Position numbers and translations under genes: made by a program. Below the pieces are notes generated by a model. It was not told the origin of the DNA, made no database searches, and worked only from the letters and a program-made list of their open reading frames with translations. Shown here piece by piece: positions 8,145 through 36,047 of a stretch of 45,357 nt of DNA. The stretch is from an uncultured bacterium (lineage in GTDB: Bacteria > Oederibacteriota > PGYV01 > Palsa-1178): positions 1 through 45,357 of the forward strand of contig CALAOR010000080.1 of assembly GCA_937889595.1 (NCBI GenBank), written 5' to 3'. Position 1 is the first letter of the stretch. Every line of letters begins with the position of its first letter.

Positions 8145-8694
8145 TTTTCTCCTCCTTTTCGTTTCCTTCGTTGTTGTTTTCAATGCCGGCGTCAAATACG
8201 CCGGCAATTTCGTCCGTTGTCAGGACCTTGTCTATGTTTAAAAGGATTATTACTCCCTTGTCTGTTTTAGCCATGCCGTGAATGAACTCTGTATTAATTT
8301 CAACTCCAAAAGACGGCACTGCTTCTACGTCTTTTTCGTAAATATCCAGCACATCCTCCACCGAGTCCACCACTATTCCCATCTGCGCCTTACCGCCGCC
8401 TGTAGTTATTTCCAGCACGACTATGCAGGTTACCTTTTTGTCAGCCGCGTTTTCCATGCCGAACTTTATCCGCATGTCTATTACCGGCAGTATGGCGCCC
8501 CTTAAATTAATCACGCCCCTGACGAATTCAGGCGTGCGCGGCACTTTTGTGGCTTCCACTACACCCGTGATTTCCATTACGCGCATGACTTCCACGCCAT
8601 AAATCTCGTTTGCCAGCCTGAAAGTCAGGTACTTGCCTTCTTTTACAGCCGCTTCTATGCTTTTTTTCTGCTTTTGTTCCGGTCCAAAATTCAT
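8137..8694 (-). CDS. cheW: CheW coupling protein
   Basis: The 185-residue protein is a single CheW domain (about residues 20-160): [38 protein letters not shown] and the conserved [11 protein letters not shown] region. It links the receptor to CheA. The start overlaps the cheA stop (ATGA) and its stop overlaps the receptor gene, so the three partners are translationally coupled. A short acidic, Asn/Lys-rich tail follows the domain. Confidence 0.95.
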
Positions 8695-11731: not shown

Positions 11732-12808
11732 TTATTTAAGTATTCTAAACACTATCCTTCTGTTCATTGCCCTGTCTTCCGGGGTCTTGCTGTCTTCAAG
11801 CGGATTTTTCATCCCGTAACCGGCTGTTGTCAGCCTGTTCGCGGCTATGCCTTTGGAAACGAGATAATCCTTGACCGACTCCGCCCTGTCTAACGCAAGC
11901 TTCCGGTTTGCCGCACCTGTTCCGGCATAGTCGGTGCATCCTTCAATTTCAACTTTCACATTGGGTTTGCTATTGAATAACTTTACCGCTTTATCAAGCA
12001 CTGCGTTTGATTCCGGCAAAAGACGCGGGCTTCCCACCGCAAAATTTACGCCGGCTAAAAGCACCCTGTCGTCGGAGATCTGTATGATAAAGTTGTCGGC
12101 AACAGGTGTTATCGGCGGGATCTTCGCGTTCATATCCTCGATCTGCTCTTTTTCGGTCTGTGCGGATTTTTCCCTGCATGGGACGCATTTTTCCGATGGT
12201 TTGCCCTGGCCAAAAATATAATTTACGCCTGCGCTGAGCGCTATATATGAATCGCGCCCGTTCAGTTCGGTCTGGATTATACTGCCGTCAAGCGCTGAAT
12301 TGGCCGTAACATAATAACCAAACTCCGTTACCAGGTTCCAATCCGGGGTCAGCTTTGCCTCGAAACCGCCGCCTATGTTTAATTGAAACCCGAGCCTGTC
12401 GTTGTCGGCAATTATCGTTTGCGCATAGCCTATGGTTTTGTAATTGCCTCCGACCCCCACAAATAAATATGGCGATATCGTTTCGCACGGGATGATATAA
12501 TACAGCCAGTCAAGATCGGCTGTTATGAGGTTTGTTTTCTCGGTTACCAGATTAAGGGACGTATCGGTCCATTGCCCTTCTATGTGATAATAACCGCCTT
12601 TCAGCCGCAATCCCACATACTCGGTAAAATTCCGCTGGATCGAGATATATCCGCCATAATTGGAATTTAAAATATCAATGTTCACCGAGTAATACCTGGG
12701 ATAACTTACGCCAAAACCCAATGCCCAGCTGTCGGCTGCTGTTTCAGCGTAAGACACGCCAAAACCTACCGCCAACAGCAACGTGAGCGCCATTAGAAAT
12801 TTTTTCAT
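11732..12808 (-). CDS. OmpA-family outer-membrane protein (downstream copy)
   Basis: The 358-residue protein has a signal peptide (cleavage probably after SYAE), an outer-membrane beta-barrel-like region to about residue 200 with alternating aromatic strands (GGYISIQRNFTEYVGLRLKGGY), a Cys-containing linker (CVPCREK) and a C-terminal OmpA domain from about 240. The OmpA domain has VEIEGCTDYAGT, NRKLALDRAESV and MNRRIVFRI, including the Asp and Arg that bind diaminopimelate in peptidoglycan. It should tie the outer membrane to the wall. It is clearly a paralogue of the gene at 14255-15331. AAAAGGAG precedes the ATG. It is the last gene of the four-gene kelch/OmpA array. Confidence 0.9.
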   Translation of the reverse strand: MKKFLMALTLLLAVGFGVSYAETAADSWALGFGVSYPRYYSVNIDILNSNYGGYISIQRNFTEYVGLRLKGGYYHIEGQWTDTSLNLVTEKTNLITADLDWLYYIIPCETISPYLFVGVGGNYKTIGYAQTIIADNDRLGFQLNIGGGFEAKLTPDWNLVTEFGYYVTANSALDGSIIQTELNGRDSYIALSAGVNYIFGQGKPSEKCVPCREKSAQTEKEQIEDMNAKIPPITPVADNFIIQISDDRVLLAGVNFAVGSPRLLPESNAVLDKAVKLFNSKPNVKVEIEGCTDYAGTGAANRKLALDRAESVKDYLVSKGIAANRLTTAGYGMKNPLEDSKTPEDRAMNRRIVFRILK

Positions 12809-12842
12809 TTTTTTCTCCTTTTATGTATGATTGAAATATATT

Positions 12843-14219
12843 TTATTGTGAATGCCAGACATCTCTTACATAACCGGGATTTATATATCCGCCGATAACC
12901 CACATCTGGGAATTAAATACCAGCGCCGTGTGCCCGTCCCTCGGCCCGAACGCCGTTGCTGCCGTTGCCTGCGCCCATATGACCCCGTCGCTTGACCACC
13001 AAACGTCATTTTGCAGGCTTCCGGTCGCGTACAGGCCGCCTATGACCCACATACTATTGTTAAATACAATGCTTGCGTGTGAATACCTTCCGCTGAACCC
13101 GGCTGATGCCGCGGCCAGCGTCCAGGTAAGACCGTCAGTGGACCACCATACGTCATTCCTGTAGCTTCCGTCCCATCCGCCGATTACCCACATCTTATTA
13201 TTATATACAAGGCCCGTGAACCTGTCTCTCGTGCTGAATGCGGCATTTGGCTGCACGCACGTCCATGCAAGCCCGTCGCTGGAACTCCATACGTCATTTT
13301 TTAAGCCCCCAGTCCCGGCATTTCCACCGATCACCCACATCTTGCTGTTATATACCAAAGCCGTGAACCCGTCCCTCGCGCTGAATACGTTGGTTGTCGA
13401 CGCCTGCGCCCAGGTAATACCGTCGCCGGAACTCCATACATCGTTTTGTAAACTTCCGTCCCATCCGCCGATTACCCACATCTTATTATTAAATACAACG
13501 CTCGAGTGCGCGTATCTCTTTGTGAATTCCGCCGTTCCTGTCACCTGCGTCCAATCTATGCCATTGCCCGATTGCCATACGTCATTCTTGGAACCGCCGT
13601 CATTTCCGCCTATGACCCACATCTGGTTGTTGAACACCACGCTCGAATGCAAGGCCCTGGCGCTGAATTGCGCCGTAATTGTCGAGTATATCCAATTCTG
13701 CCCGGGGACCGGGGTCGGTGTGGATGTCGGAGTAGTGGTTGGCGACCAAAAACTCGCGATATAAGTCTGCGTTTTCCGCGCTCCCTCCGTGCTTGTGGCA
13801 TTTGCGTTCCCCACTACAGTCAATATTTCCCCGGCCGTTAATGTTAAATCCGGTGTTTGAGTGCTTGTACTTGTAATTGTAGGTGTAAAAGAACTCGCGA
13901 TAAATGTTTGTGTTATACGCGCCGCTTCCGTCGCCGTCGCGTTGTCCGCCCCCACAGCCGTAATTATCGCGACTATTGTCTGTGTCATATTCGGCGATGA
14001 TGTTATTGTGGGGGTAATAGTCGGTGAATATAACCTTGCTATCTGTGTTTGCGTGGCATTGGCGTTAATCGCCGCCGTCAATACGGCCACCAGCGTTTGC
14101 GCTACATTTGGCGTGGTTACCGTCACCACGGGAGCGGTAAGCGCGGGCCTTTGATCCTGACAGCCGAACATCATTAAGATAAAAACAATAATTGATAATG
14201 CAATTAAGACTTTTTTCAT
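12843..14219 (-). CDS. kelch-propeller lipoprotein with Thr-rich stalk (downstream copy)
   Basis: The 458-residue protein starts with a lipoprotein-type signal (ILMMFGC, Cys about 20). Residues 30-175 form three imperfect repeats of about 45 residues containing ANATxTExAR plus TPTxTxT segments, a likely extended stalk. Residues 180-458 hold six kelch-like repeats, each with ARxxHxSxVxNxxMWVIGG and NDVWxSxDGxxW, enough for one six-bladed beta-propeller. Such propellers bind proteins or glycans; no enzymatic motif is seen. The spacer of 34 bp to the OmpA gene is nearly identical to that of the upstream pair, so pair and spacer were duplicated together. Whether it faces the periplasm or the cell surface cannot be told. 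Confidence 0.88.
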   Translation of the reverse strand: MKKVLIALSIIVFILMMFGCQDQRPALTAPVVTVTTPNVAQTLVAVLTAAINANATQTQIARLYSPTITPTITSSPNMTQTIVAIITAVGADNATATEAARITQTFIASSFTPTITSTSTQTPDLTLTAGEILTVVGNANATSTEGARKTQTYIASFWSPTTTPTSTPTPVPGQNWIYSTITAQFSARALHSSVVFNNQMWVIGGNDGGSKNDVWQSGNGIDWTQVTGTAEFTKRYAHSSVVFNNKMWVIGGWDGSLQNDVWSSGDGITWAQASTTNVFSARDGFTALVYNSKMWVIGGNAGTGGLKNDVWSSSDGLAWTCVQPNAAFSTRDRFTGLVYNNKMWVIGGWDGSYRNDVWWSTDGLTWTLAAASAGFSGRYSHASIVFNNSMWVIGGLYATGSLQNDVWWSSDGVIWAQATAATAFGPRDGHTALVFNSQMWVIGGYINPGYVRDVWHSQ

Positions 14220-14254
14220 AAATTCCCGCCTCCTTGGATGATATTGCGCCTTGA

Positions 14255-15331
14255 TTATTTAAGGATCCTGAACACTATCCTTCTGTTCATGGCCCTTCCT
14301 TCCGGTGTCTTGTTATCTTCGAGCGGGTTGTTCATCCCGTAGCCTATGGTTGTAAGCCTGGCTTCATCCACGCCCTTGGAGACAAGATATGTTTTAACTG
14401 TTTCAGCCCTTTCCAGTGAAAGTTTCTGGTTGTAGGACCCGGTGCCGACATAATCAGTGTATCCCTCTATCTCAACTTTCACCTCGGGCTTGGTATTCAA
14501 TAACTTTACGGCCTGGTCAAGCACACCGTATGATTCCGGCAAAAGGCTTGATTTGTCGAATGCGAACTTTACACCGACTAAAAGCAGCCTGTCATCCGAT
14601 ATTTTCACTATATAGCTGTCGACAACAGGCTGTCTTGACATGTTTTTTATGATCAGGTCTTCGATCTTCCCATAGTCTATCTCTGCGGAGCCCGTCTTGC
14701 AGGGTCCGCACTGTTCTGACGGTGAACCCTGGCTAAAAAGATAATTGACGCCGGCGCTGAAAACAAGATATGAATCGTATCCGTTCAATTCTGCCGCGAC
14801 AATGTCGCCGTCAAGCGCCGAATTTGCCGTAATGTGATAACCAAACTCGCCCGTTACATTCCATTCCGGGTTCAGCTTTACTTCCACGCCCAAGCCGGCA
14901 TTCAGCTGGACGCCGGGTTTGTCCGCGTCCGGTATGGCCGTTTCCGCGCCCGATATCATTTTGTAATTGCCGCCGGCGCCTGCAAATATATAAGGAGAGA
15001 TCAGTTCACATGGAATAACATAATACAGCAGGTCAAGGTCGGCTGTTATAAGGTTTGTTCCCTCGGTTACCAGGCTGTTGACCGGCCCGTTGAGCCATTG
15101 CCCTTCCATGTGCGAATAACCGGCTTTCAGCCTCAATCCCACATGCTCCGTGAAATTCCGCTGGATAGAAATATAACCGCCGTAATTGGAATTTAAAGCG
15201 TCAATATTCACCGAATAATACCTGGGATAGCTTAAGCCAAAACCCAGCGCCCAGCCGTCGGATGCTGTTTCTGCGTTAGACATGCCAACGCCTGCGGAAA
15301 GCAGCGCGAGTATCATAAAAATTTTTTTCAT
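14255..15331 (-). CDS. OmpA-family outer-membrane protein (upstream copy)
   Basis: This is a 358-residue paralogue of the protein at 11732-12808, with identical length and order: signal peptide ending near SNAE, beta-barrel-like region (YYSVNIDALNSNYGGYISIQ), Cys pair linker (CGPCKTG), and C-terminal OmpA domain with VEIEGYTDYVGT, NQKLSLERAETV and MNRRIVFRI. Both copies share the first barrel strands almost exactly and diverge more in the middle and linker, as expected for surface loops under different selection. It lies 34 bp after the upstream kelch gene and 35 bp before the downstream kelch gene, probably in one transcript. Confidence 0.9.
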   Translation of the reverse strand: MKKIFMILALLSAGVGMSNAETASDGWALGFGLSYPRYYSVNIDALNSNYGGYISIQRNFTEHVGLRLKAGYSHMEGQWLNGPVNSLVTEGTNLITADLDLLYYVIPCELISPYIFAGAGGNYKMISGAETAIPDADKPGVQLNAGLGVEVKLNPEWNVTGEFGYHITANSALDGDIVAAELNGYDSYLVFSAGVNYLFSQGSPSEQCGPCKTGSAEIDYGKIEDLIIKNMSRQPVVDSYIVKISDDRLLLVGVKFAFDKSSLLPESYGVLDQAVKLLNTKPEVKVEIEGYTDYVGTGSYNQKLSLERAETVKTYLVSKGVDEARLTTIGYGMNNPLEDNKTPEGRAMNRRIVFRILK

Positions 15332-15365
15332 TTTGTTCTCCTTTTATGTATGATTGAAATATATT

Positions 15366-16652
15366 TTATTGTGAATGCCAGACATCGCTGACATAACCGG
15401 GATTTATATATCCGGCTATGACCCACATCTGGTTGTTATATACCACGCTTGTGTGCCCGTCTCTCGGGCTAAACTGTGCGGCCGCTGTGGCCTGAGTCCA
15501 TACAACCCCGTCGCCCGACGACCATACGTCATTTTTTAAGTTCCCGACTATATCCAGACCGCCTATAACCCACATCTTGAGCCCGGAGCCGGTGCCGTCA
15601 TCATATACCACGCTTGTGTGCAAACTTCTTCCGTTGAACCCCGATGTTGATACCTGAGTCCAGATAATTCCGTCGCTGGACCGCCACACGTCATTTTTAT
15701 AACTCCCGTCATATCCGCCGATGACCCACATCTGATTATTATATACAAGGGCCGTAAACCTGGCCCTCGCGCTGAATTGCGCCGCTGCTGTCAGCTGAGT
15801 CCAGAAACTTCCGTCACTGGAACTCCATACGTCATTTCTATAACTCCCGTCATATCCGCCAATTACCCACATCTTATTATTAAATACAAGGGCCGCAAAT
15901 CCGTCTCTCGCGGTGAATCCAGCAGCTAGTTGCACAGGCGACCAGTTAATCCCGTTGCTTGAATTCCATACGTCGTTTTTCAGGCTTAGGGTATCATCAT
16001 ATCCGCCGATAACCCACATCTTGAGCCCGGAGCCGTTATCATAAACAACACTCGAGTGGGAGTCTCTCGCGCTGAATCCCGCTGATAGAGTCGACCAGTT
16101 CCAGGTAATTCCGTCGCTGGAGCTCCATACGTCATTTTTTTTAGTCCCGTCATTTCCGCCTATAACCCACATCACGCCGTTATACACCAGGCTCGTATGC
16201 GAGTACCTGGGACTGAACTGCGTCACGGTCGTCGAGTATGTCCAATGTTCCCCGCCTACAGGCGTTGGTGTTAATGTCGGGGTACAGGTTGGCGTCCATA
16301 AACCCGCTACAAAGGTCTGTGTTAGCCGCGCTTCAGCCGTGCCTGTGGCATTCGCGTTGGCCACTATGGTCAATATTGCCTGGACCGTCAATGTCGCGTT
16401 CGGCGATTGAGTGATCGTGCTGGTAACTGTAGATGTATATAAACCGGCTGCGGCAGTCGCCGTTTTTTGCGCCGCTGCCGTGCCTGTGGCATTCGCTATT
16501 GCCGCGCTTGTCATAACTGCGGCTACCGTGCTTTCCACATTTGGCGGTGTCATTGTCCCCGCTGGAACGGTGGGTAAAGTCCTTTGATTTTGACAGCCAA
16601 ACATCATTAAAATAAAAACACTGATAAATGATAAAATTGAAATCTTTTTCAT
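15366..16652 (-). CDS. kelch-propeller lipoprotein with Thr-rich stalk (upstream copy)
   Basis: The 428-residue paralogue of the protein at 12843-14219 has a lipoprotein-type signal (LMMFGCQNQ), two to three Thr/Ala-rich stalk repeats (ANATGTAxAxxTxT, with TPTCTPTLTPTP at the end), and six MWVIGG kelch repeats from about residue 140. Two of the repeats contain an insertion (YDDGTGSGLKMWVIGG) absent from the other copy. It is the first gene of the four-gene array; the region upstream contains TATATTAT but no convincing -35 box. Its C-terminal 30 codons and following spacer match the other copy almost base for base. Confidence 0.88.
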   Translation of the reverse strand: MKKISILSFISVFILMMFGCQNQRTLPTVPAGTMTPPNVESTVAAVMTSAAIANATGTAAAQKTATAAAGLYTSTVTSTITQSPNATLTVQAILTIVANANATGTAEARLTQTFVAGLWTPTCTPTLTPTPVGGEHWTYSTTVTQFSPRYSHTSLVYNGVMWVIGGNDGTKKNDVWSSSDGITWNWSTLSAGFSARDSHSSVVYDNGSGLKMWVIGGYDDTLSLKNDVWNSSNGINWSPVQLAAGFTARDGFAALVFNNKMWVIGGYDGSYRNDVWSSSDGSFWTQLTAAAQFSARARFTALVYNNQMWVIGGYDGSYKNDVWRSSDGIIWTQVSTSGFNGRSLHTSVVYDDGTGSGLKMWVIGGLDIVGNLKNDVWSSGDGVVWTQATAAAQFSPRDGHTSVVYNNQMWVIAGYINPGYVSDVWHSQ

Positions 16653-24822: not shown

Positions 24823-26271
24823 CTATGCCTGTTTTAAAGGAAGCGAAATTATAAAAGTTGTGCCTTTACCAGGCATGCTTTCCACGTTTATCTTGCCGTT
24901 GTGCGAGTCAATAATTGATTTTGCTATGCTTAACCCGAGGCCATATCCGTACTCGCTGCGGGACCTGTCAACGCGGTAGAACCTGTCAAAAATATGCTGT
25001 AATTCATCCTGGGCAATGCCTGTGCCTGTATCTGTTATGAAAACTTCGGCATACGGATCTTTTTTTTGGATACCGATTGTTACTCTTCCCCCGGCCGGGG
25101 TGTACTTAACGGCATTATCAATAATATTTGAAAATACGCGTTTTATATTATCCGCGTCCGCATCCAGCCGTACGTCTATGCCCGGTTCAAGTATTAACGC
25201 GATGTTTTTCCTGTCTGCCAGCACTTTCATATTATATATCACCTGTCCGATCATTGCCCGCAGTTCAAACGGAAGCTGTTTGGCTGCGGGTTTATTTTCC
25301 TGCCGCGCCAGGAACAGAAGGTTCTCAACAAGCTGGCCCATACGGTCAATTTCTTCAAGGTTAATCCTTAATACACGTTCATATTCTTCAGGGCTGCGTT
25401 TTTTGTTCAGGGTTACTTCCTGATTGCCTTTTAAAGCGGTTAAGGGCGTTCTTAATTCATGGGAAATGTCCTGGACCAATTGCTGCTGGCTGGAAAATGC
25501 CTTATCTATTCGCGCCAACATGTCATTAAATGTCCCGGCTAAATCCTTTATTTCATCATTTTCGTCGGGCAGCACTATTTTATCCTTTAGGTTCCTTGAA
25601 GTGATCCGGTGTATGGCCGATGTCATATTAACTACGGGACTTAAAGCCATTTTTGTCAGGAATTGCCCCAATCCGACAATAATAAATATGGCAACCGGAA
25701 AAAACAGCAGCAGGGCGGTTATCAGCCTGTTCAACTCAACCTGCATGGGTTTTAAAGAAGTGGAAACCTGTATAAAATACGGGAATTTGTTCTCTTCCAC
25801 GACGGGTATGGTGAATACTTTTAAAGGCGGGAGTTTGGTGTTTGGCGGTTTCAATTGCACAACATTAAAAACACCTGTATTTTCTTCCTTTGTTTTTTTG
25901 ATGATCTTCGATAAAGGCAGGGAAAACAGCATATTCCCTGAATGTACAATTTCCGCTTTATCCGGCCTGAATATCTGGATAAAAATATTTTCGCCGGTAT
26001 TTTCTTCAACAGCATACTTTGCGGCATTAATAAAATCGGCTTTAGGCGCGGACACGGAGGCATTGACGGTAATCTCGGATATATCTTCCTCATTATAGCT
26101 GGATATTACCTGCCCTATATCCCCGGCTTTTGACCTTAACAGATCATTCAGATTCTTATCGAGGCTCCTGGAAAAACTCCCGTATATGAAAAAGCTGAAT
26201 ATAAGGATAACAACGCCCAATACCAGCGTGTACCACAGCGTCATTTTAAAATGAATGGATTTTGTGAACAC
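24823..26271 (-). CDS. membrane sensor histidine kinase (OmpR-partner type)
   Basis: The 482-residue protein has TM1 at 12-32, a periplasmic sensor of about 150 residues, TM2 at about 183-203, a HAMP domain to about 256, HisKA ([19 protein letters not shown], His 271), and HATPase_c with FSNIIDNAVKYTPAGG, DTGTGIA and GYGLGLSIAKS. The layout is like heavy-metal and envelope-stress sensors such as CusS. The periplasmic part contains FIQIFRPDKAEIVHSG, as in that group, but no His-rich metal site is evident. Only 3 bp separate it from the regulator gene upstream, so the two are co-transcribed. Confidence 0.93.
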   Translation of the reverse strand: MFTKSIHFKMTLWYTLVLGVVILIFSFFIYGSFSRSLDKNLNDLLRSKAGDIGQVISSYNEEDISEITVNASVSAPKADFINAAKYAVEENTGENIFIQIFRPDKAEIVHSGNMLFSLPLSKIIKKTKEENTGVFNVVQLKPPNTKLPPLKVFTIPVVEENKFPYFIQVSTSLKPMQVELNRLITALLLFFPVAIFIIVGLGQFLTKMALSPVVNMTSAIHRITSRNLKDKIVLPDENDEIKDLAGTFNDMLARIDKAFSSQQQLVQDISHELRTPLTALKGNQEVTLNKKRSPEEYERVLRINLEEIDRMGQLVENLLFLARQENKPAAKQLPFELRAMIGQVIYNMKVLADRKNIALILEPGIDVRLDADADNIKRVFSNIIDNAVKYTPAGGRVTIGIQKKDPYAEVFITDTGTGIAQDELQHIFDRFYRVDRSRSEYGYGLGLSIAKSIIDSHNGKINVESMPGKGTTFIISLPLKQA

Positions 26272-26274
26272 AGA

Positions 26275-26943
26275 TCAACTCCTTATGATATAGCCCGAAC
26301 CCCTGACCGTATGAATGATCTTTTTTTTGTGCTGCCTGTCTATCTTATTTCTAAGCGCATTTATATGCACATCCACAACATTGGTATCAGCGTCAAAATT
26401 CATGTCCCAGACATGCTCGGTAATGGCCGTTCGTGTCACTACCTGGCCGGAATTATACATCAGGTATTCCAAAAGGGCAAATTCTTTATTGGTTAACAGG
26501 ATTTCCTTGTCTGACCTTGTCACTTTGCGTGCATGCAGATCCATAATAAGGTCATCAGCCTGAAGTTTCCCTGATTCTTTGCCGCTGTTCTTTCTAAGCA
26601 AAACCCGTATCCGCGCAAGCAATTCTTCAAACGCAAAAGGTTTTGTCAGGTAATCATCCGCCCCGCAATCCAAGCCGGTTACTTTATCATTCACGCTGTC
26701 TTTTGCCGATAATATAAGAATGGGGGTTTTATTCCCGTCAGATCTGATCTTTTTGCAGAGTGTTATTCCGTCCATTTTAGGGATCATTAAATCCAGAATA
26801 ACCGTGTCGTACTTTTCCGTCGAGATGAGAAAGTACCCGTTTTCGCCGTCATTTGCCGTATCAACGGAATACCCGTTTTCTTTTAAGCCCTGCCTGATAA
26901 AATTCGCTATGTGTTTTTCATCCTCTATGACAAGTATGCGCAT
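26275..26943 (-). CDS. OmpR-family response regulator
   Basis: The 222-residue protein has a receiver domain (EDEKH, phospho-Asp 51 in LDLMIPKMDG, Lys in YLTKPFAFEELLARI) and a C-terminal winged-helix DNA-binding domain (LTNKEFALLEYLMYNSGQVVTR, TNVVDVHINALRNKI, IHTVRGSGYII). It is the CusR/PhoB-like output of the kinase encoded 3 bp downstream. A likely target is the triple 11-bp repeat at 24769-24797. GAGGT precedes the ATG; its own promoter should lie in 26944-27090, where I see no matching repeat. Confidence 0.95.
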   Translation of the reverse strand: MRILVIEDEKHIANFIRQGLKENGYSVDTANDGENGYFLISTEKYDTVILDLMIPKMDGITLCKKIRSDGNKTPILILSAKDSVNDKVTGLDCGADDYLTKPFAFEELLARIRVLLRKNSGKESGKLQADDLIMDLHARKVTRSDKEILLTNKEFALLEYLMYNSGQVVTRTAITEHVWDMNFDADTNVVDVHINALRNKIDRQHKKKIIHTVRGSGYIIRS

Positions 26944-27093
26944 AATTCAAACCTCTTATCTTTACGCTTAAAATTGTGTTACACGCACATTTACCCGCAT
27001 GTTCTGTACGCCGCAAGGGATCTAGTGTTGAGCATGAAGGTTGTTTTACTGTTTTTGACATTACCACTCCCCTTATTTTCCTGCCGTATACTA

Positions 27094-27312
27094 TCAATTC
27101 ATTTTATCGTTTGTTTCTTCAATTGCCGAAAACACTTGTTTAAGTATTTTTGGATGCAGTATCTTACCGGAATGAAATGGAAGGACAATGCGAGATGTTC
27201 CTTTTAAATATATCCTATGACTCCCTTTTTGTCTTAAAAAAACAAACCCGCCGGAAATTAAAAGTCTTTCAGCTTCTTTTGCGGTCAGCCTGTCTTGCTT
27301 AACCAACGGCAA
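27094..27312 (-). CDS. hicA: HicA-family mRNA interferase toxin
   Basis: The 72-residue protein has the HicA fold signatures: LTAKEAERLLISGGFVF, KGSHRIYLK with catalytic His 32, and VLPFHSGKILHPKILKQV. HicA binds RNA through a dsRBD-like fold and cleaves mRNA until HicB neutralises it. The frame overlaps the end of hicB by 14 nt and opens with TTG at 27312 (a second TTG at 27306); no ATG is available. The poor start and ribosome site suggest low, coupled translation, useful for a toxin. Confidence 0.9.
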   Translation of the reverse strand: MPLVKQDRLTAKEAERLLISGGFVFLRQKGSHRIYLKGTSRIVLPFHSGKILHPKILKQVFSAIEETNDKMN

Positions 27313-27523
27313 TCTCGAGTGAAGTTGTAAGTATTTCCTTGCTTGATATTTTTTTTCTTTCTTTCCTGGATAAAGTTTCTACATATAATTCTATAGCTTC
27401 CTTTATATTTTTCATAACCTCTTCAAGACTCTCGCCCTGCGTATGACAGCCTTTTAAATCCGGCACATATGCAAAATAACCAAAGTCGTCTTTTTCTATA
27501 ACCACATTTACCTTGTATGTCAC
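27299..27523 (-). CDS. hicB: HicB-family antitoxin
   Basis: The 74-residue protein has the partial RNase H-like fold of HicB: YKVNVVIEKDDFGYFAYVPDLKGCHTQGESLEEVMKNIKEA shortened here to its key features, VPDLKGCHTQG and the helix NIKEAIELYVE. There is no clear helix-turn-helix or ribbon-helix-helix tail, so direct DNA binding is uncertain. The GTG start follows GGAGGT. A near-consensus promoter lies 25 bp upstream. Antitoxin-first order with overlap to hicA gives excess antitoxin. Confidence 0.9.
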   Translation of the reverse strand: MTYKVNVVIEKDDFGYFAYVPDLKGCHTQGESLEEVMKNIKEAIELYVETLSRKERKKISSKEILTTSLEIAVG

Positions 27524-27547
27524 AAAACACCTCCAATGCTTTTTATA

Positions 27548-27576
27548 ATTATACCATCAAAAATATGCTCATTCAA
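27548..27576 (-). promoter_or_regulatory. hicBA promoter (TTGAAT-17-TATAAT)
   Basis: Reading the minus strand, TTGAAT (27576-27571), a 17-base spacer and a perfect TATAAT (27553-27548) form a sigma-70-type promoter 25 bp before the hicB start. The -10 region overlaps the palindrome TATAATTATA, a possible autoregulatory operator. Confidence 0.75.
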
Positions 27577-27583
27577 GAACAAA

Positions 27584-27667
27584 TACCCGTCAGACCTGAT
27601 TTTTTTGCAGAGTGTTATTCCGTTCATTTTAGGGATCATATATCCAGGATAACCGCGTCGTACTTTT
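27584..27667 (-). pseudogene. relic of an OmpR-type response regulator
   Basis: About 84 bp closely match codons around the phospho-Asp of the regulator at 26275-26943 (compare 26732-26815), with about eight differences. Translated, it reads KYDAVILD, then after a one-base deletion MIPKMNGITLCKKIRSDG. The deletion and missing flanks show it is dead. It directly abuts the hicBA promoter. Confidence 0.75.
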
Positions 27668-27810
27668 GACACTGCCGAAACCCCTGCAAATAGTCATCGG
27701 TTTTTCCGTTAAGAACAGGCATAACAATACACACGCTTTGCGGGTTTACATGACTGGTTACAGTTTAAGGAACACTCTGTGTGTTTTATCAGCTTGATGA
27801 CTTACTTTTA

Positions 27811-28101
27811 TTATTGCGCCATCGTCCCGGCGGCCGGCGTAGTTTCGTGGAATTTATCAAGGACTTTTGCCTCTATCGACTTGCGCATGTCCGTGTTAAG
27901 CGGGTGCGCTATGTCCTTAAATGTCCCGTCCGAGAGCTTCCTGCTCGGCATGACCACAAAAAGTCCGTTCTTGCCGTCTATCACCTTTAATCCTCTTACA
28001 ACAAACGAACTGTCAAAAGTGATGCTCGCGTACGCTTTCAGTTTCTGGTCCTCTGATGCGCCTGCTCCTCTTGGGAAAACTTTTACTTCTGTGATCTCCA
28101 T
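27811..28101 (-). CDS. spoVG: SpoVG family RNA/DNA-binding regulator
   Basis: The start at 28101 gives a 96-residue SpoVG protein (MEITEVKVFPRG, KAYASITFDSSFVVRGLKVIDG, FVVMPSRK, FKDIAHPLNTDMRKSIE), supported by AGGAGGT 5 nt before the ATG; the longer frame has no such site. SpoVG proteins bind nucleic acid and act as global post-transcriptional or transcriptional regulators in Gram-positives and spirochaetes. The conserved 69-bp module at 28170-28238 lies upstream and probably contains its promoter. It stands alone, with the next gene upstream belonging to the surface-protein locus. Confidence 0.95.
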   Translation of the reverse strand: MEITEVKVFPRGAGASEDQKLKAYASITFDSSFVVRGLKVIDGKNGLFVVMPSRKLSDGTFKDIAHPLNTDMRKSIEAKVLDKFHETTPAAGTMAQ

Positions 28102-28169
28102 ACGGCACCTCCTGTTTTTTTGTCTGCTGATATTTTCATTTTGCGCTTTCTCTTTTTTCGGGATAAGCA

Positions 28170-28238
28170 TACATAAAAGATCCGGGTCCGGGTATGCCGA
28201 CTTTCCACTTTTTTTTGACTTTTTTCAACAAAGAAAAC
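28170..28238 (-). promoter_or_regulatory. conserved upstream module, spoVG copy
   Basis: On the minus strand the module reads GTTTTC, TGTTGAAAAAAGTC, an A-rich run, GGAA, CGGCATACC, 13 variable bases, then TTTATGTA. The 48-bp core matches the copy at 35539-35607 at 41 of 48 positions without a gap, and CGGCATACC-N13-TTTATGTA keeps the same spacing. It begins about 62 nt before spoVG. A promoter with an A-tract upstream element is the likely reading; the sigma factor is unknown. Confidence 0.55.
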
Positions 28239-28247
28239 TTAAAGGCG

Positions 28248-31200
28248 TCAGCGCAGCACTATAAACTTCTTCAAACCGAATTTAACCACGTTTCCGTAAT
28301 TGTAATCCAGCGTGAGAAAGTACATATATACACCGGGCGCCAATCTGGAAATATCGATCACAGAAATCTGCGGCCCTGCGGGCTTATTTTCGTCTTTTAG
28401 CGCAGCCAAATCGCCCGTCTCATTATAAATCCTGATCTTTACGTTTCCCTGGGCCACCATAGCATAGGATATATTAACCGTGTTCCGGGCCGGATTTGGA
28501 TACAGAATATTTGTTCCCTGATTTACAGGCACGACGTCAGCCGCCGGCGTAACTGTTGCGGTAAAGGACGGCCCCGGAGTTGATGTCATGGTTGTTGTCT
28601 GCGCGGCCGTCATGGTCGGCGTTATAGTTCCACTTATTGTTTCCGTAATTCCCGGCGTTACATCCTGGGGCGTAGATGTCACTGTAGAAGTCGGGCTTTC
28701 AGTTCCAGTTGCCGCCGCAGTTCCATTTTCCGTCACACTATAAGTGGCTGTCTGCGTTATTGTGCCCGTGCCGGTGGCGGTATATGTCGCTGTCATAGTG
28801 GCTGTATTGGTTGCGGTCGCGGTCGGGGTGTTTGTTTGTGTGATCGTTCCGGTAAATGTCGGCGTGGCGGTTATTGTCGGCGTATAGGAGGATGTTTGCG
28901 TTATCGTCGGTGTTGCAGTCAATGTAATTGTGGCCGTATTGGTGCCTGTCATGGTTATTGTCGGCGTTACCGTGCTGCTTACGACCGGCGTCACTGTCGG
29001 TGTGTATGTCCTGGTCGATGTTTTGGTCACCGTATAAGTCGGCGCGATGACCCTGTTGTAGTTTATTATGACAGTATCTATAGACGGCGATTGAAAGTCG
29101 TCGTAAGCCGTAAACATTGCCCGCCATTTCAACTTGTCCCCCGCGTTAACGCCGGTAAAAGCAACGCCTATACCCGGTATTGCCGGGAGCCACGTCGACC
29201 CGTTATTGGCTGATAACCAGTAATCTATCTGCTGTCCGTTTAAGGCCTGTACCGAGGTGAGCGTCACGCTTGAGTATCCGGCAAACCACTGGTCTATCAT
29301 CGTGGAATAAACCCAGCCAGGAGATACATATGAAAGGCCGTAACGGTTCAGTTTCGCGTTATCCCCCCCGATGATCCAGTAAACACCGTTAAATGCCACG
29401 GTATTAATGGCCGCCGAGTTGAAATTCACCAGATTACCGCTTTCATCCGTATAAACCCCGGCGCCGGCGCCCGACGCGATATTTATTTTCCCATTCTTCC
29501 CGCCTATTATCCATTGCTGCTGCGACGGGGAATAATCCATGTCATATATATCCGCTGTCCCGAAATTTACAAGCCTGCCGCTTATATTTGAAAAAGCTCC
29601 GGCCTCGTAATCAGCCATTTCAGCGCTGCCGCACCCTATCCTGATCTTTGAAAGACCGTCATATTTTAGCGTGTTTACGCTGTAATAGCCGCCCAGGCAG
29701 CTGTAAAGAGCGTTCTTTAAATCCGCATATGAATTCACTCCGTTGTACATGACCAGACCGCCGTTGCCGCCCCCGATGAACCACGATGATTGGCCCGGAA
29801 TCCATTCAACTTTATTTACAGGATCATAGGCCCCAAAATAAGGCGATATATCCTTTGCCTGAAAATTATCGCCGTCCGCGCTGATGCTTAAGTTCCTGTT
29901 TCCCCCGCCTATGACCCACTGCGATCCGTTCCATTTGATCGTCTTGACGCCGATGTTGCCAAACCCGAGCGCACTGGTCCTGTCAAGAAAATTGGTCCCG
30001 TCAAATTTCGCGAGTTTGCCGCTGGTTCCCCCTATGAGCCAGTAATTATTGGCACTGTTCCACCCCGCGCACAGCACATCATCCGCGGTCCAGTTCAGCG
30101 CGGTCCAGCTCGGGTTCGCTTTCAGATCCGTGAAATTGGTCCCGTCATATGTATTCAGGGAGCCTTCTACGCCGCCCACGAGCCAGTAGGAATTATTGGA
30201 CTCGGCAAAATTTATCGCGTTCGAACCGAAGTCCAGTGCATCGCGGGAGAAATCGGTATTTATGGGGGAGTTGTACGTACCCGTCCTCTTCATTAAACAT
30301 CCGTTTTGGCCGCCGATCATATTAATTCCGTTGGCCTGCCCGTCGCTTGCTATCGCCCATATGGGATGCGCCGAGAAATATGCCGGGTTTGATTGCTCGG
30401 TGTATGGAGTGATGTTTGCGTCCGAAGTGGTGTAAAACACGGTTTGAGTCTGCAGTTTGGAACCGCCAATGAGCCAGTAATATCCGTTCCATTTTATGGA
30501 CCATACAGTGTAAAGGGGGGTGCCGCTGGGATACGTGCTGGTATTGGTAAATGTTGTACCGTCATAAGTCGCGATCTTTCCCGCGCCGCCGCCCAACACC
30601 CAGTAACTGCCGTTCCAGTCCATGGTGTTAATGTCATAATAAACGCTTCCCCAGGCCGCATAAAGCTGCGCGGTCAGGTCCGTAAATGTGAATCCGTCAT
30701 ACTTGGCGATCTTTCCGTTTGCGCCCGCTATAAGCCAGTAAGAGCCGCTGTATCCGATCGTCTTGACGGCATTTGGCTGAAAATTCAGGTTGTATTTAAA
30801 ATCAACCCACGACGTCCCGTCAAAACCGTTTAAGGACCCGGTTTCCCCGCCAAAAAGCCAGTAGTTGCCGCTTGGCGTGCAGTTGATCGCGTTAATGGCC
30901 CCGGAAAAATCAACGAGGCTGTTTTTAACATTGGTCCACGGCCCGTTATTGTCCCGCCTGTTTAAATTCGGGCCGTCGCCGCCTATAAACCAAGTGCTAT
31001 TGTTGTGTTTAATCGCCCTTATATTGGAATTGTAAAATCCCACAAGGGTTGCGGTTCTGTCGATAAAATGCGTCCCGTCAAATTCATTCAGCTTTCCCTG
31101 CAGCCCGCCGATCATCCAGCTTGTCGGCGACCCGTATTCGATGGTGGTGATCCCGCCGCCCCAGTTTATTACATCCATTGTCTGGGCAAATTTGCTGACC

Positions 31201-31376
31201 CTTTGCAGCACGGCCCTGCTGTTTATGGTATCCCAGTTGGCCGTGGTATTTACCGTATCTTTATACGCGGCGGTGTCAAATGTTTCCGTAAAGGCAAAAA
31301 CGCGGCCCGCGAAAACAACGGCGCATAAAAATGCCGTTGTGGCGAACACCGCCCTGCGTAATATCCGCGGGATCAT
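28248..31376 (-). CDS. large secreted propeller-like protein with Thr/Pro stalk and FlgD-like tail
   Basis: I start at 31376 (MIPRILRRAVFATTAFLCAV) because AGAGGT lies 5 nt upstream and a signal peptide ending near FA follows. The 1042-residue protein has about fourteen degenerate repeats of the type NGSYWLIGGxxGKLxxYDGTxF (residues 60-680), expected to build beta-propeller blades. Next comes a beta-sandwich-like domain (GWVYSTMIDQWFAG to VIINYNR), a Thr/Pro-rich stalk of about 160 residues (TPTVTPV, TATPTITQT), and a C-terminal FlgD-like domain beginning ILYPNPARNTVNISY. Such tails resemble type IX sorting domains, but no type IX genes are seen here. The gene follows the PorV/OmpA gene by 35 bp. 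Confidence 0.85.
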   Translation of the reverse strand: MIPRILRRAVFATTAFLCAVVFAGRVFAFTETFDTAAYKDTVNTTANWDTINSRAVLQRVSKFAQTMDVINWGGGITTIEYGSPTSWMIGGLQGKLNEFDGTHFIDRTATLVGFYNSNIRAIKHNNSTWFIGGDGPNLNRRDNNGPWTNVKNSLVDFSGAINAINCTPSGNYWLFGGETGSLNGFDGTSWVDFKYNLNFQPNAVKTIGYSGSYWLIAGANGKIAKYDGFTFTDLTAQLYAAWGSVYYDINTMDWNGSYWVLGGGAGKIATYDGTTFTNTSTYPSGTPLYTVWSIKWNGYYWLIGGSKLQTQTVFYTTSDANITPYTEQSNPAYFSAHPIWAIASDGQANGINMIGGQNGCLMKRTGTYNSPINTDFSRDALDFGSNAINFAESNNSYWLVGGVEGSLNTYDGTNFTDLKANPSWTALNWTADDVLCAGWNSANNYWLIGGTSGKLAKFDGTNFLDRTSALGFGNIGVKTIKWNGSQWVIGGGNRNLSISADGDNFQAKDISPYFGAYDPVNKVEWIPGQSSWFIGGGNGGLVMYNGVNSYADLKNALYSCLGGYYSVNTLKYDGLSKIRIGCGSAEMADYEAGAFSNISGRLVNFGTADIYDMDYSPSQQQWIIGGKNGKINIASGAGAGVYTDESGNLVNFNSAAINTVAFNGVYWIIGGDNAKLNRYGLSYVSPGWVYSTMIDQWFAGYSSVTLTSVQALNGQQIDYWLSANNGSTWLPAIPGIGVAFTGVNAGDKLKWRAMFTAYDDFQSPSIDTVIINYNRVIAPTYTVTKTSTRTYTPTVTPVVSSTVTPTITMTGTNTATITLTATPTITQTSSYTPTITATPTFTGTITQTNTPTATATNTATMTATYTATGTGTITQTATYSVTENGTAAATGTESPTSTVTSTPQDVTPGITETISGTITPTMTAAQTTTMTSTPGPSFTATVTPAADVVPVNQGTNILYPNPARNTVNISYAMVAQGNVKIRIYNETGDLAALKDENKPAGPQISVIDISRLAPGVYMYFLTLDYNYGNVVKFGLKKFIVLR

Positions 31377-31411
31377 AACAACCTCTTTTAATGGATGCGG
31401 TGTGTTTTTCA

Positions 31412-32749
31412 TCACTGCTTCACGGTTTCAAACAACCCTCTCCTGTTTAATCTCGCCGCTTCTGAGTTTATATTTTTAGGATCGGACTCATACGCCGCCG
31501 AGTTGCTTTCGCCGAACCAGATTATAAAAACCCTGTCGGGAGATATGTCCCCTTCCCTTATAATGTAATTCCGGATGCCGTACGCCCTCTTTTCGCTGAG
31601 TTTCATGTTATAGACTTCCCCGCCGCTTATGGATGAGTAACCGGCTATGCGCACTTCTGTTTTGGGATTTTCTTTTAAGATCAAAATATTCCTTTTCAGC
31701 AGCACCAGCGCATCCTGGGAAAGGTCGGACTTCATATTATCAAAATAAACGGTTTCAGAAGTCATTACCCGCTTGTCTGACGCCGGTAAATAGTTCCTGT
31801 CCAGCGCCTTAAATGTGGAGGAGTATGTCAAACTGAGCCTGTGGGATGACCCGAGTTCTCCGGAAGGCACAAACGCGTAATCCAGCGTAAAGTCCTGGAC
31901 TTTGATCCCTATGCCTGCGGTTATTCCCATAAGGCCCGAAAGTCCCTGATTCGAAAAGTTATATATATAGCCAAAACGCAGGGCAGGCATTGAAAATCCT
32001 GTAAATTCAATTCCCGTATTTAAACGGCTTAACCCGTTAGCCTGTGTCTCTCCGGAAAAAGCCAGCAAGAACCGGTTGCTTTTCCCGAAATCAAACCCGT
32101 ACGAACCGCCCGCGCGGAAATCCGAGGCAACAGCGTAGTTTTCGATTTTCCCGCCCAAGTTTGAGTAAGCCGCGCCAAAAGTAAAAGAAGGGGTTGCTTT
32201 CCATAATAAGCCGATATCTCCGGTGAAGGCATAATATACCCTGTCTGCAAGGGTCTTTTGCGCGGCGTTAATTGCCACTCCCGCGTAAACGCCGGGCATC
32301 CATTCCCTGCCCCAGCCTGCCTTGATGCCTTTTTCTCCGGCATTGTTGGTACCCGCAAGAAGCTGCCCTGAGTTATCCCGTATGTCAAATATGCCGTTAT
32401 CGGAGTAATTTATTGATATTGCAAGGCCCCCAAAAGTTCCGGCGGGTATTCCAATAACAGCTATCTCCTGCACAAGGTCCCCGGGCGAGCTGTTGTGATG
32501 TATGCCTATTTCCATATTTTCCATGACACCAAGCCCTGCCGGGTTCCATAGCAACGCGGATGAACCCTCTGCAACGCCCGTATAAGCGGAACCCATGGCC
32601 ATGGCGCGCGCTGTTCCGTTTTGCTCGTCAAGAGGCATTGCCAGGCTGGCCGCAGGCAGTATGGTATCGGCAGGCAGTATCTGCGCGCCAATTAAGAAAA
32701 CAAATATAACCCCTGATACAACCGCCTTGATTTTAATTTTAACCTCCAT
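31412..32749 (-). CDS. PorV/PorQ-like outer-membrane barrel fused to an OmpA domain
   Basis: The protein of about 445 residues has a signal peptide, then a PorV/UPF0164-like barrel opening with GTARAMAMGSAYTGVAEGSSALLWNPAGLG, a motif shared with FadL/PorV proteins. From about residue 325 a C-terminal OmpA-type domain follows (TSETVYFDNMKSDLSQDALVLL, VRIAGYSS, MKLSEKRAYGIRNYI, EAARLNRRGLF). PorV proteins serve as surface shuttles in type IX secretion; an OmpA fusion would anchor the barrel to peptidoglycan. The start is unclear: ATG at 32749 lacks a good ribosome site, while GGAGG lies inside the frame before an ATT codon. A heptanucleotide repeat lies upstream. Confidence 0.85.
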   Translation of the reverse strand: MEVKIKIKAVVSGVIFVFLIGAQILPADTILPAASLAMPLDEQNGTARAMAMGSAYTGVAEGSSALLWNPAGLGVMENMEIGIHHNSSPGDLVQEIAVIGIPAGTFGGLAISINYSDNGIFDIRDNSGQLLAGTNNAGEKGIKAGWGREWMPGVYAGVAINAAQKTLADRVYYAFTGDIGLLWKATPSFTFGAAYSNLGGKIENYAVASDFRAGGSYGFDFGKSNRFLLAFSGETQANGLSRLNTGIEFTGFSMPALRFGYIYNFSNQGLSGLMGITAGIGIKVQDFTLDYAFVPSGELGSSHRLSLTYSSTFKALDRNYLPASDKRVMTSETVYFDNMKSDLSQDALVLLKRNILILKENPKTEVRIAGYSSISGGEVYNMKLSEKRAYGIRNYIIREGDISPDRVFIIWFGESNSAAYESDPKNINSEAARLNRRGLFETVKQ

Positions 32750-32790
32750 CACATCAGTTCCCAGTCTGCTTTTCGTGTATTTGATCTATC

Positions 32791-32839
32791 TGTTCTCTGT
32801 TCTTTGTTCTTTGTTCTTTGTTCTCTGTTCTTTGTTCTT
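32791..32839 (-). repeat. seven tandem copies of TGTTCTY upstream of the PorV/OmpA gene
   Basis: Seven head-to-tail heptamers (five TGTTCTT, two TGTTCTC; AAGAACA on the coding strand) lie about 40-90 bp before the start of the PorV/OmpA gene. Simple repeats of this kind change length by slippage; here the change would alter promoter spacing or leader length, not a reading frame. Confidence 0.85.
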
Positions 32840-32866
32840 TGCTATATGCTCTCCGCGCTTTTGATC

Positions 32867-33235
32867 TTAATTACAGTATCTGTCGATCGCAAGTTTGGTC
32901 TTTTTTCTCTGTATATGACCGTCATCTCCGCGGGCCTCTATTACGGCCACATAAACACCCATAGGGCACATATCCCCTGTATTATTGCGCAGATCCCAGG
33001 TCGCTTTGCCCGTTTTAAGGCTTGCACCTATTGTACGCACCTGTTCACCTGCTTTGTTTAATATAACAACATTGACACAGCCGTTTTTTTTCCTGATTTT
33101 TTCGGTATCCAGGTTTATTTCAATAACATCTTCCGGCCCATCGTCCGGCTTGGGCGCCGCCTCCAGTCCGATCAGCTGAAAAACGCCGTAAGAACTTGTC
33201 CCTTCCTTATAAATCCAGTGATTATACTTGTGCAT
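32867..33235 (-). CDS. small FlgD-immunoglobulin-like protein
   Basis: The 122-residue protein holds one FlgD-like beta-sandwich (about residues 45-118): VNVVILNKAGEQVRTIGA, KATWDLRNNTGDMCPMGVYVAVIEA and a final KTKLAI strand. In related bacteria this fold ends large secreted proteins or forms the hook-capping domain. Here it stands alone with no signal peptide, and AGAGGT 7 nt before the ATG shows the short form is genuine. The N-terminal 45 residues (NHWIYKEGTSSYGVFQLI) are unfamiliar. It precedes the PorV/OmpA and propeller genes and may belong to the same export process. Confidence 0.7.
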   Translation of the reverse strand: MHKYNHWIYKEGTSSYGVFQLIGLEAAPKPDDGPEDVIEINLDTEKIRKKNGCVNVVILNKAGEQVRTIGASLKTGKATWDLRNNTGDMCPMGVYVAVIEARGDDGHIQRKKTKLAIDRYCN

Positions 33236-35607: not shown

Positions 35608-35729
35608 GGGGTTAAAATGGATTTTGGGGAGGATGTTGGATGCTGGGGGCAACCTTCAATAATAAGACGATTAACTATTCGTATCCGGTACAAGCCGATT
35701 TTCTTTATTGCCTGTACGCCATAAGCCAT

Positions 35730-36047
35730 GTAGTCGCGGGCCTGCGTTTCATCGGCCCGCGCCTAGATAAGGAAACTAAACAAGCAAACATTTAGATCGC
35801 CCACACAACCGTGTGATACAATGATTTAATTCCCGCAGGCGCACCCCGATGGATCGTAGAGGGTGCGACTACGAAGTCGTAGATTTTACACACGGCAGGA
35901 TTGTGTAGTCGCGGGCCTGCGCCTCATCGGCCCGCGCCTAGATGAGGAAAATAAACAAGCAAACATTTAGATCGCCCACACAACCGTGTGATACAATGAT
36001 TTAATTCCCGCAGGCGCACCCCGATGGATCGTAGAGGGTGCGACTAC
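35730..36047. repeat. two 143-bp direct repeats with inverted ends GTAGTCGC/GCGACTAC
   Basis: Copies at 35730-35872 and 35905-36047 are nearly identical (differences near CGTTTC/CGCCTC and AAGGAAACT/GAGGAAAAT). Each starts GTAGTCGC and ends GCGACTAC, and carries internal inverted pieces (CGGGCC/GGCCCG; CCTGCG/CGCAGG). They are separated by 32 bp. There is no reading frame. A non-autonomous mobile element in tandem is likely. Confidence 0.85.

Follow-up and report, generated by a model that had tools for sequence, protein, structure and literature searches.

Two putative surface-display modules that pair propeller proteins with OmpA-domain barrels in a member of candidate division FCPU426

Cargo of the type IX secretion system (T9SS) is matched to barrel partners in ways that resemble part of the locus described here. 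In Porphyromonas the OmpA-domain protein PorE binds PorP, and PorP binds type B cargo (accessible portion of PMC9143113). Type B cargos of Flavobacterium use a cognate shuttle that is often encoded directly downstream, and its type A tails are all recognized by PorV, with some operons adding a PorE homologue (PMC12618676, in the part available). Another part of the locus recalls E. coli OmpA, an eight-strand barrel with an OmpA domain that interacts with the lipoprotein RcsF (PMC7553776, also available in part). We have analyzed contig CALAOR010000080.1, hereafter the window, a stretch of 45,357 nucleotides that forms contig C80 of a 3.42-Mb genome (99% complete) from an uncultured bacterium whose phylum is candidate division FCPU426 in NCBI naming. 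The window contains two gene groups, systems A and B, lying ~11.6 kb apart, and in both of them genes for OmpA-domain barrels adjoin genes for propeller proteins. The original prediction treated the three pairs as one surface-display unit. We consider it probable, at roughly 0.68, that they are two independent surface-display modules.

System A comprises four genes on the same strand, running from 16652 down to 11732 as a tandem duplicate in the order lipoprotein-barrel-lipoprotein-barrel, with intergenic gaps of 34, 35 and 34 bp. The coordinates of the two pairs are as originally proposed, and Pfam confirms their kelch and OmpA domains.

15366-16652, reverse strand: P0004, predicted outer-membrane lipoprotein with a lipid anchor, a Thr/Ala-rich stalk and a six-repeat kelch propeller (Pfam, repeat count, lipobox by inspection and rule)
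14255-15331, reverse strand: P0003, eight-strand barrel with an OmpA domain that retains the wall-binding residues Asp293 and Arg308 (Pfam, model, alignment)
12843-14219, reverse strand: P0002, second kelch lipoprotein, with CQDQR following the lipobox (Pfam, repeat count)
11732-12808, reverse strand: P0001, second barrel with an OmpA domain (Pfam, alignment)

Both lipoproteins have a lipobox, a stalk (Thr 24%, Ala 14-19%, Pro 8%) and kelch matches above the Pfam cut-off, with six MWVI(G/A)G cores in each spaced 47-52 aa apart, against a mean no higher than 0.008 after shuffling. The residues beginning at the lipidated cysteine of P0004 are CQNQR. P0001 and P0003 are 68% identical, and each combines a small barrel (PF13505) with an OmpA domain (PF00691), both above cut-off. 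An AlphaFold2 model of P0003 (single chain, mean pLDDT 79.8, pTM 0.52) shows an OmpA fold and a barrel of eight strands, and Foldseek ranks an E. coli OmpA model first among its matches. In the PF00691 domains of both proteins an Asp and an Arg are retained 15 residues apart, and these we take to be the residues that bind diaminopimelic acid of the cell wall (compare structures 3td3-3td5). A CxxC lies between the barrel and the OmpA domain, at residues 208-211 of P0003 and at the same place in P0001; it is kept in all four aligned FCPU426 barrels, and the second Cys is not a conserved column in the wider alignment.

The arrangement invites comparison with the Slam exporters of surface lipoproteins, in which a barrel gene also stands beside a lipoprotein gene. 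Slam barrels are larger and carry tetratricopeptide repeats (TPRs), whereas the system-A barrel has eight strands in the model plus an OmpA domain and is not a large export barrel. According to the available part of PMC7553776, the eight-strand barrel of OmpA is too small for passage of a polypeptide, and a disputed 16-strand form is also mentioned there. We therefore judge, from the strand number in the P0003 model, that the system-A barrel is probably no exporter, and have rejected that role for it. With OmpA and RcsF, system A shares the eight-strand barrel, the OmpA domain and a lipoprotein partner, here a putative one. It differs from them in having its two genes side by side and in the large domains, exchangeable between loci, that its lipoprotein bears.

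Of 45 genomes examined from the phylum, 4, the host's included, encode an orthologue of the system-A barrel. A scan of a collection of species genomes gave 41 loci, 38 of them labelled Bacteroidetes, Ignavibacteria-type or Chlorobiota; the remaining three are two unplaced bacteria and the FCPU426 genome G003 itself (relatives are named by genome, contig or locus number where needed). In a tree of 45 barrel rows, from which L164 (contig end) and G002 (broken pair) were left out, the lipoprotein-adjoined barrels form one clade of 16 rows, mostly Ignavibacteriota, with support of 99/97 at the midpoint root. An upstream lipoprotein gene is present in 15 of the 16; it is split in L144 and L181, and lies 839 bp away in L152. 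Of the 29 rows outside the clade, 22 have a gene of 100 aa or more upstream. A loose lipobox rule flags four of these: three, at distances of 1.4-2.8 kb, look FtsZ-like by eye, and the fourth (L154, 441 bp) is doubtful; the rest of the 22 have no upstream lipoprotein. Both loci left out of the tree also carry the lipoprotein, that of G002 being a 100-aa remnant. Gene neighborhood thus supports the proposal that the barrel is a partner of lipoproteins of the P0002/P0004 type.

The outer domain of the lipoprotein changes from locus to locus. In seven barrel-adjacent lipoproteins it resembles the DUF3494 ice-binding proteins (PF11999), by Pfam in G003 (= L143), G005 and L142 and by phmmer in L141, L144, L145 and L164, ice binding itself being a prediction. 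L146 and L148 have a CarboxypepD_reg-like domain just under cut-off (E 1.6e-6 and 4.7e-7); the domain scan covered these two, and five similar proteins were grouped with them by N-terminus, length and C-terminus. Among the loci found, kelch repeats stand beside a system-A barrel in the window only. The window barrels nest within the ice-binding group (8 rows, support 100/100). An exchange of outer domains is thus apparent at the level of sequence. Kelch matches at E 1e-20 are present in 18 of 41 genomes of the phylum, and three FGE-sulfatase-like lipoproteins of the own genome (L128 5957-7153, L132 1-553 and L135 4352-5725; Pfam for two) match P0004 in anchor and stalk at 46-49% identity. The simplest history would be that a resident kelch lipoprotein replaced an ice-binding one beside an acquired barrel.

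The neighbors in relatives had been expected to show the propeller and the OmpA-domain barrel together. Conservation was indeed found for barrel with lipoprotein and, in system B, for sorting tail with PorV, but not for the propeller as an element. Side-by-side kelch and OmpA genes were seen in the own genome and in one relative of the 18 kelch genomes, among the matches listed and with the lists compared by eye. In that relative, from a distant family of the phylum, a kelch lipoprotein follows, after 285 bp, a PorV-OmpA fusion whose end looks TPR-like by eye (G018:C83; L209 92-3142). None of the other kelch genes of the own genome directly adjoins an OmpA gene, and on contig C77 a PorV-OmpA gene lies one gene away from a kelch gene. 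Adjacency of propeller and OmpA as a general rule was not seen in the own genome or the relatives searched, and was rejected.

An arginine shortly after the lipidated cysteine marks the barrel-adjacent lipoproteins. Under the loose rule it occurs at position +4 or +5 in 13 of 16, against 4 of 123 other flagged open reading frames (ORFs; own-genome loci account for 3 of 68 and the remaining loci for 1 of 55), a set that includes non-lipoproteins. The strict rule, which misses 7 of the 16, gives 7 of 9 against 1 of 50. The rows are related and no p-value is attached to these counts, from which the unreadable lipoprotein of L181 was left out. The motifs in relatives are CDDR, CSQR, CESSR and similar. 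The four flagged ORFs outside the clade have no such arginine, and the place of the motif is taken by CQKN or CKKS in the FGE-sulfatase-like lipoproteins that share the stalk of the window and by CQKS in a second, non-adjacent lipoprotein of G005. A lipoprotein export signal has been described in Bacteroidota (PMC5080379, available in part), and the system-A motif is unlike it: C-x-K-(D/E)2, Q-A-(D/E)2 or S-D-D-D-D after the Cys is matched neither by the lipoproteins of the window nor by those of the relatives. It is possible that the peptide C-x2-3-R helps to dock the lipoprotein on its OmpA partner; alternatively it may be a sorting signal.

System B consists of two genes whose reading frames overlap by 4 bp, preceded by a short ORF.

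31412-32752, reverse strand: P0006, PorV-family barrel (matched residues 47-311) fused to an OmpA domain (matched residues 336-426) (NF033709, PF00691)
28248-31415, reverse strand: P0005, predicted secreted protein with a double seven-blade-like propeller, a beta-sandwich, a Thr stalk and a Por_Secre_tail (model and Pfam); estimated from the model and the Pfam match, the propeller spans ~29319-31202, the Thr stalk ~28521-29033 and the Por_Secre_tail ~28251-28520
32867-33235, reverse strand: P0007, stand-alone 122-aa tail-like ORF in which inspection showed no signal peptide (weak: TailA E 2e-5; FlgD_ig and CHU_C under cut-off)

P0005 has 1055 aa from its GTG, or 1042 from Met14. About fourteen repeats had been claimed for it, and we find 12 W-type cores (shuffle mean 0.02), an INMIGG at residue 365 by a looser pattern and a degenerate core near 590 by eye, so that the claimed number stands. 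Residues 40-790 were modelled with high confidence (single chain, pLDDT 90.7, pTM 0.84), and the best Foldseek matches include 7+7 double propellers such as 1nr0. Most of the top VIA-align rows span the whole model, although the residues they align amount to a single propeller, which suggests that P0005 is a closed double propeller. Among proteins of solved structure, Ycf48-like ones come nearest in sequence (E 2e-5). Stalks are present in all three displayed proteins, as predicted, but they are not of one Thr/Pro kind: those of the lipoproteins are Thr/Ala, and that of P0005 is 40% Thr and 9% Pro. The tail of P0005 is PF18962, the Por_Secre_tail secretion signal family (38.7 bits, cut-off 27), which we take to be T9SS type A; in NCBIfam the T9SSA-dependent protease model alone responded to it, at 20.5 bits and far under its cut-off. 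The FlgD-like tail that had been assigned to this protein is a different thing, the FlgD_ig-like piece belonging to the separate P0007. P0007 occupies the slot in which a cargo usually precedes PorV, and is perhaps the decayed end of a cargo.

P0006 belongs to the PorV/PorQ family (NF033709, 99.8 bits, cut-off 90) and does not reach the PorV equivalog NF033710 (24.9 of 250). Relatives of the P0005 propeller head proteins of 2618-2736 aa in C16, G003, G005, G006 and G013, and shorter proteins in G020:C82, G020:C38 and G028. Of the long ones C16 and G005 were scanned; each has a pair of Thr stalks together with Big_1 domains and a tail whose CHU_C-like match is under cut-off. P0005 is a short paralogue of the propeller family with the other type of tail. 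PorV adjoins the family member in 11 of the 12 cases whose flank was read (the window, C16, G011, G006, G005, G013, G003, two in G028, G020:C82 and G040:C5; the exception is G020:C38). These 12 do not include G002 and G020:C66, at contig ends, or weak and partial members in G025, G028:C58, G028:C67 (third), G040:C182 and others.

Association of tail and PorV extends through the genome. Matches to P0005 that reach at least query residue 1051 were collected from the own genome, giving 15 places besides P0005, all of which were examined; 150 of 282 candidates were scored, so that the place counts are lower bounds, and the tail profile was trained partly on these sequences. A PorV-family gene lies within 250 bp on the same strand at 7 of 9 strong tails and 0 of 6 weak ones (Fisher 0.006), as expected of a partner. 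Over all loci, relatives included, the figure is 15 of 17 strong tails, the PorV loci having been fetched partly because of a PorV match. Seen from the PorV side, six of the seven own-genome matches at E 1e-15, among the matches listed and with P0006 included, adjoin a tail protein. The usual order is cargo then PorV, and it is reversed in the window and in C41. Distances among own-genome tails correlate with those among their PorV proteins (Mantel test: r 0.69, p 0.002, n=9, and with the tails restricted to type A, r 0.75, p 0.002, n=8), so that at the level of the sequences the two appear to have diverged together. In G015 and G035 three cargo-PorV pairs stand in tandem, and the last PorV is fused to OmpA like P0006; the three cargos scanned have SBBP propeller repeats, and the middle PorV of G035 is a 166-aa ORF. 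Large PorV-OmpA fusions of 648-785 aa are found at five own-genome loci (L124, L125, L195, L198 and L199), and the one on C76 lies ~10 kb from the SprA-like gene.

The profile of SprA, the T9SS translocon, matched 20 of 21 genomes (own included) at E 0.001, two of the 21 over cut-off. A C25 peptidase domain is present in the own genome and in 2 of 20 relatives. The own C25 peptidase, of gingipain type (L222 3854-8344, G000:C10), has a propeptide as well as a sorting tail of its own, and may therefore be a cargo protease and not PorU.

System B resembles the type B arrangement with PorP-SprF and PorE in that a FadL-type barrel, here putatively cognate, is encoded next to its cargo, that barrel and wall would be connected through an OmpA domain, and that there is one shuttle per cargo or few cargos. 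It differs in its tail, which is PF18962 and presumably type A, in its PorV-family barrel, and in the fusion of OmpA to that barrel where the known system has a separate PorE lipoprotein. With the type A route and a general PorV it shares the PF18962 tail, the PorV-family barrel and, with a score under cut-off, a SprA-like ORF in the genome. That route is reported to have one PorV (PMC12618676, in the part available), whereas several PorV paralogues are present here, each beside one cargo gene. Each system is a variant of something known; the parts that would surprise are a cognate PorV for type A tails and an exchangeable lipoprotein-OmpA cassette with its arginine. Titles and abstract openings of open-licence literature gave no description of a PorV/OmpA fusion or of a per-cargo PorV for type A, nor, for FCPU426, DUF3494 or kelch, any account of the system-A pair.

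From this we infer how the modules might work, the complexes, surface position, wall binding, export route and role of the arginine all being predictions. In module A an outer-membrane lipoprotein would bear an exchangeable outer domain, here the kelch propeller, on a Thr/Ala stalk. Its dedicated OmpA-type partner would place a small barrel in the outer membrane and grip peptidoglycan with its C-terminal domain. The lipoprotein would thereby be tied to the wall, and the short stretch that follows its lipidated Cys (C-x2-3-R) would be the likely point of contact. In module B, P0005 would be exported by Sec and then, directed by its type A sorting tail, through the SprA-like translocon. P0006, as a PorV-family barrel of its own, would receive and hold it, the fused OmpA domain adding a link towards the wall. 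P0006 would thus do in one protein, for a type A tail, the job reported in Bacteroidota for PorP and PorE.

A number of observations weigh against two modules of this kind. The SprA-like ORF (2131 aa, three SprA segments) scores 186.4 bits, under the cut-off of 200, and none of 14 control genomes matched in the SprA search; GldM was found in none of the 21 genomes, nor did any control genome match. The OmpA domain of P0006 keeps the Arg and has Ser where P0001 and P0003 carry the wall-binding Asp, as do four related OmpA domains of G015 and G035, and among the matches listed an OmpA domain was detected on the PorV of a P0005-family member only in the window. The strong tails of C81 and C24 in the own genome have no PorV neighbor, and the PorV of C89 has no cargo neighbor. 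Joint duplication of both genes could produce the co-divergence of tail and PorV. In system A, L149 has a barrel without a lipoprotein, the single case outside the barrel-adjacent set under the strict rule is a C90 kelch lipoprotein that has the arginine and no barrel neighbor, Lys replaces it in L148 and L152, and the broken pair of G002 has neither residue.

How else might the locus be read? A single wall-anchored machine of barrel and stalked propeller, present in three copies with the barrel as partner or exporter, would account for the OmpA domain (PF00691) that is indeed found on all three neighbors, and the propeller repeats of the three displayed proteins align by profile (hhalign 98.9%), which need mean no more than general propeller similarity. 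This reading, that of the original prediction, is largely refuted and we regard it as very improbable. The barrel types, anchors and tails are unrelated, as probably are the export routes; the supposed reordered copy has a PorV-family protein where P0001 and P0003 are of the eight-strand OmpA type. Moreover, no other locus seen has kelch beside a system-A barrel, and that barrel has eight strands in the model.

System A might also be periplasmic, with the lipoprotein in the inner leaflet of the outer membrane, its stalk crossing the periplasm so that the tip faces the wall, and the OmpA protein a nearby spacer. In favor of this, no gene for an exporter was seen beside the two, the RcsF of E. 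coli attaches to OmpA at the periplasmic domain (PMC7553776, in the part available), topology is unreadable from sequence and the surface signal of Bacteroidota is unmatched. Ice-binding-like, kelch and Big_5 domains on long Thr-rich stalks would, however, better suit the outside, and a periplasmic location seems to us unlikely. Slightly less probable is that the genes share an operon without contact between their products, a horizontally moved general OmpA protein being accompanied by whichever lipoprotein adjoins it. The patchy distribution in the phylum and the free change of outer domains could be explained in this way, but adjacency of barrel and lipoprotein is kept across Ignavibacteriota and FCPU426 through those changes, and the arginine tracks adjacency. 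The two-module reading can also be taken further. The OmpA-type protein would then be a dedicated wall-bound receptor that reads the arginine peptide, so that any outer domain is pluggable, and each FCPU426 type A cargo would own a cognate PorV, some with built-in OmpA, making display independent of a general PorV or sortase. We offer this stronger form tentatively, and as a whole it is doubtful.

The T9SS has been described in Bacteroidota, whose type A cargos reportedly have one PorV in common and whose type B cargos have separate shuttles. If two modules are indeed present, a phylum with PorV beside most of its type A cargos, and with OmpA fused to some of these barrels, would illustrate ways of rebuilding both the specificity of a shuttle and its anchoring to the wall. 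Its tail/PorV pairs would be natural cognate sets with which to study specificity. System A would offer a short, testable motif for tying a lipoprotein to a particular OmpA-type protein whatever its load.

Several further features of the window were noted. A heptamer array, AAGAACA in 7.3 copies (32791-32841), lies within the 114-bp gap ahead of P0006. The same repeat is found at 15 places in the genome, one of them between two genes that resemble ATP-synthase subunits by eye, and phase variation of P0006 through the array was therefore dropped as specific evidence. There is a 175-bp direct repeat at 35729-36047 (1.8 copies, 97% matches), and a 494-aa protein at 17190-18674 gave no Pfam match at E 0.01. 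Genes for a CheA-like protein and methyl-accepting chemotaxis proteins lie at 6171-10991, on the same strand and ~740 bp past P0001, and more che-like genes, recognized by eye, reach down to 1189.

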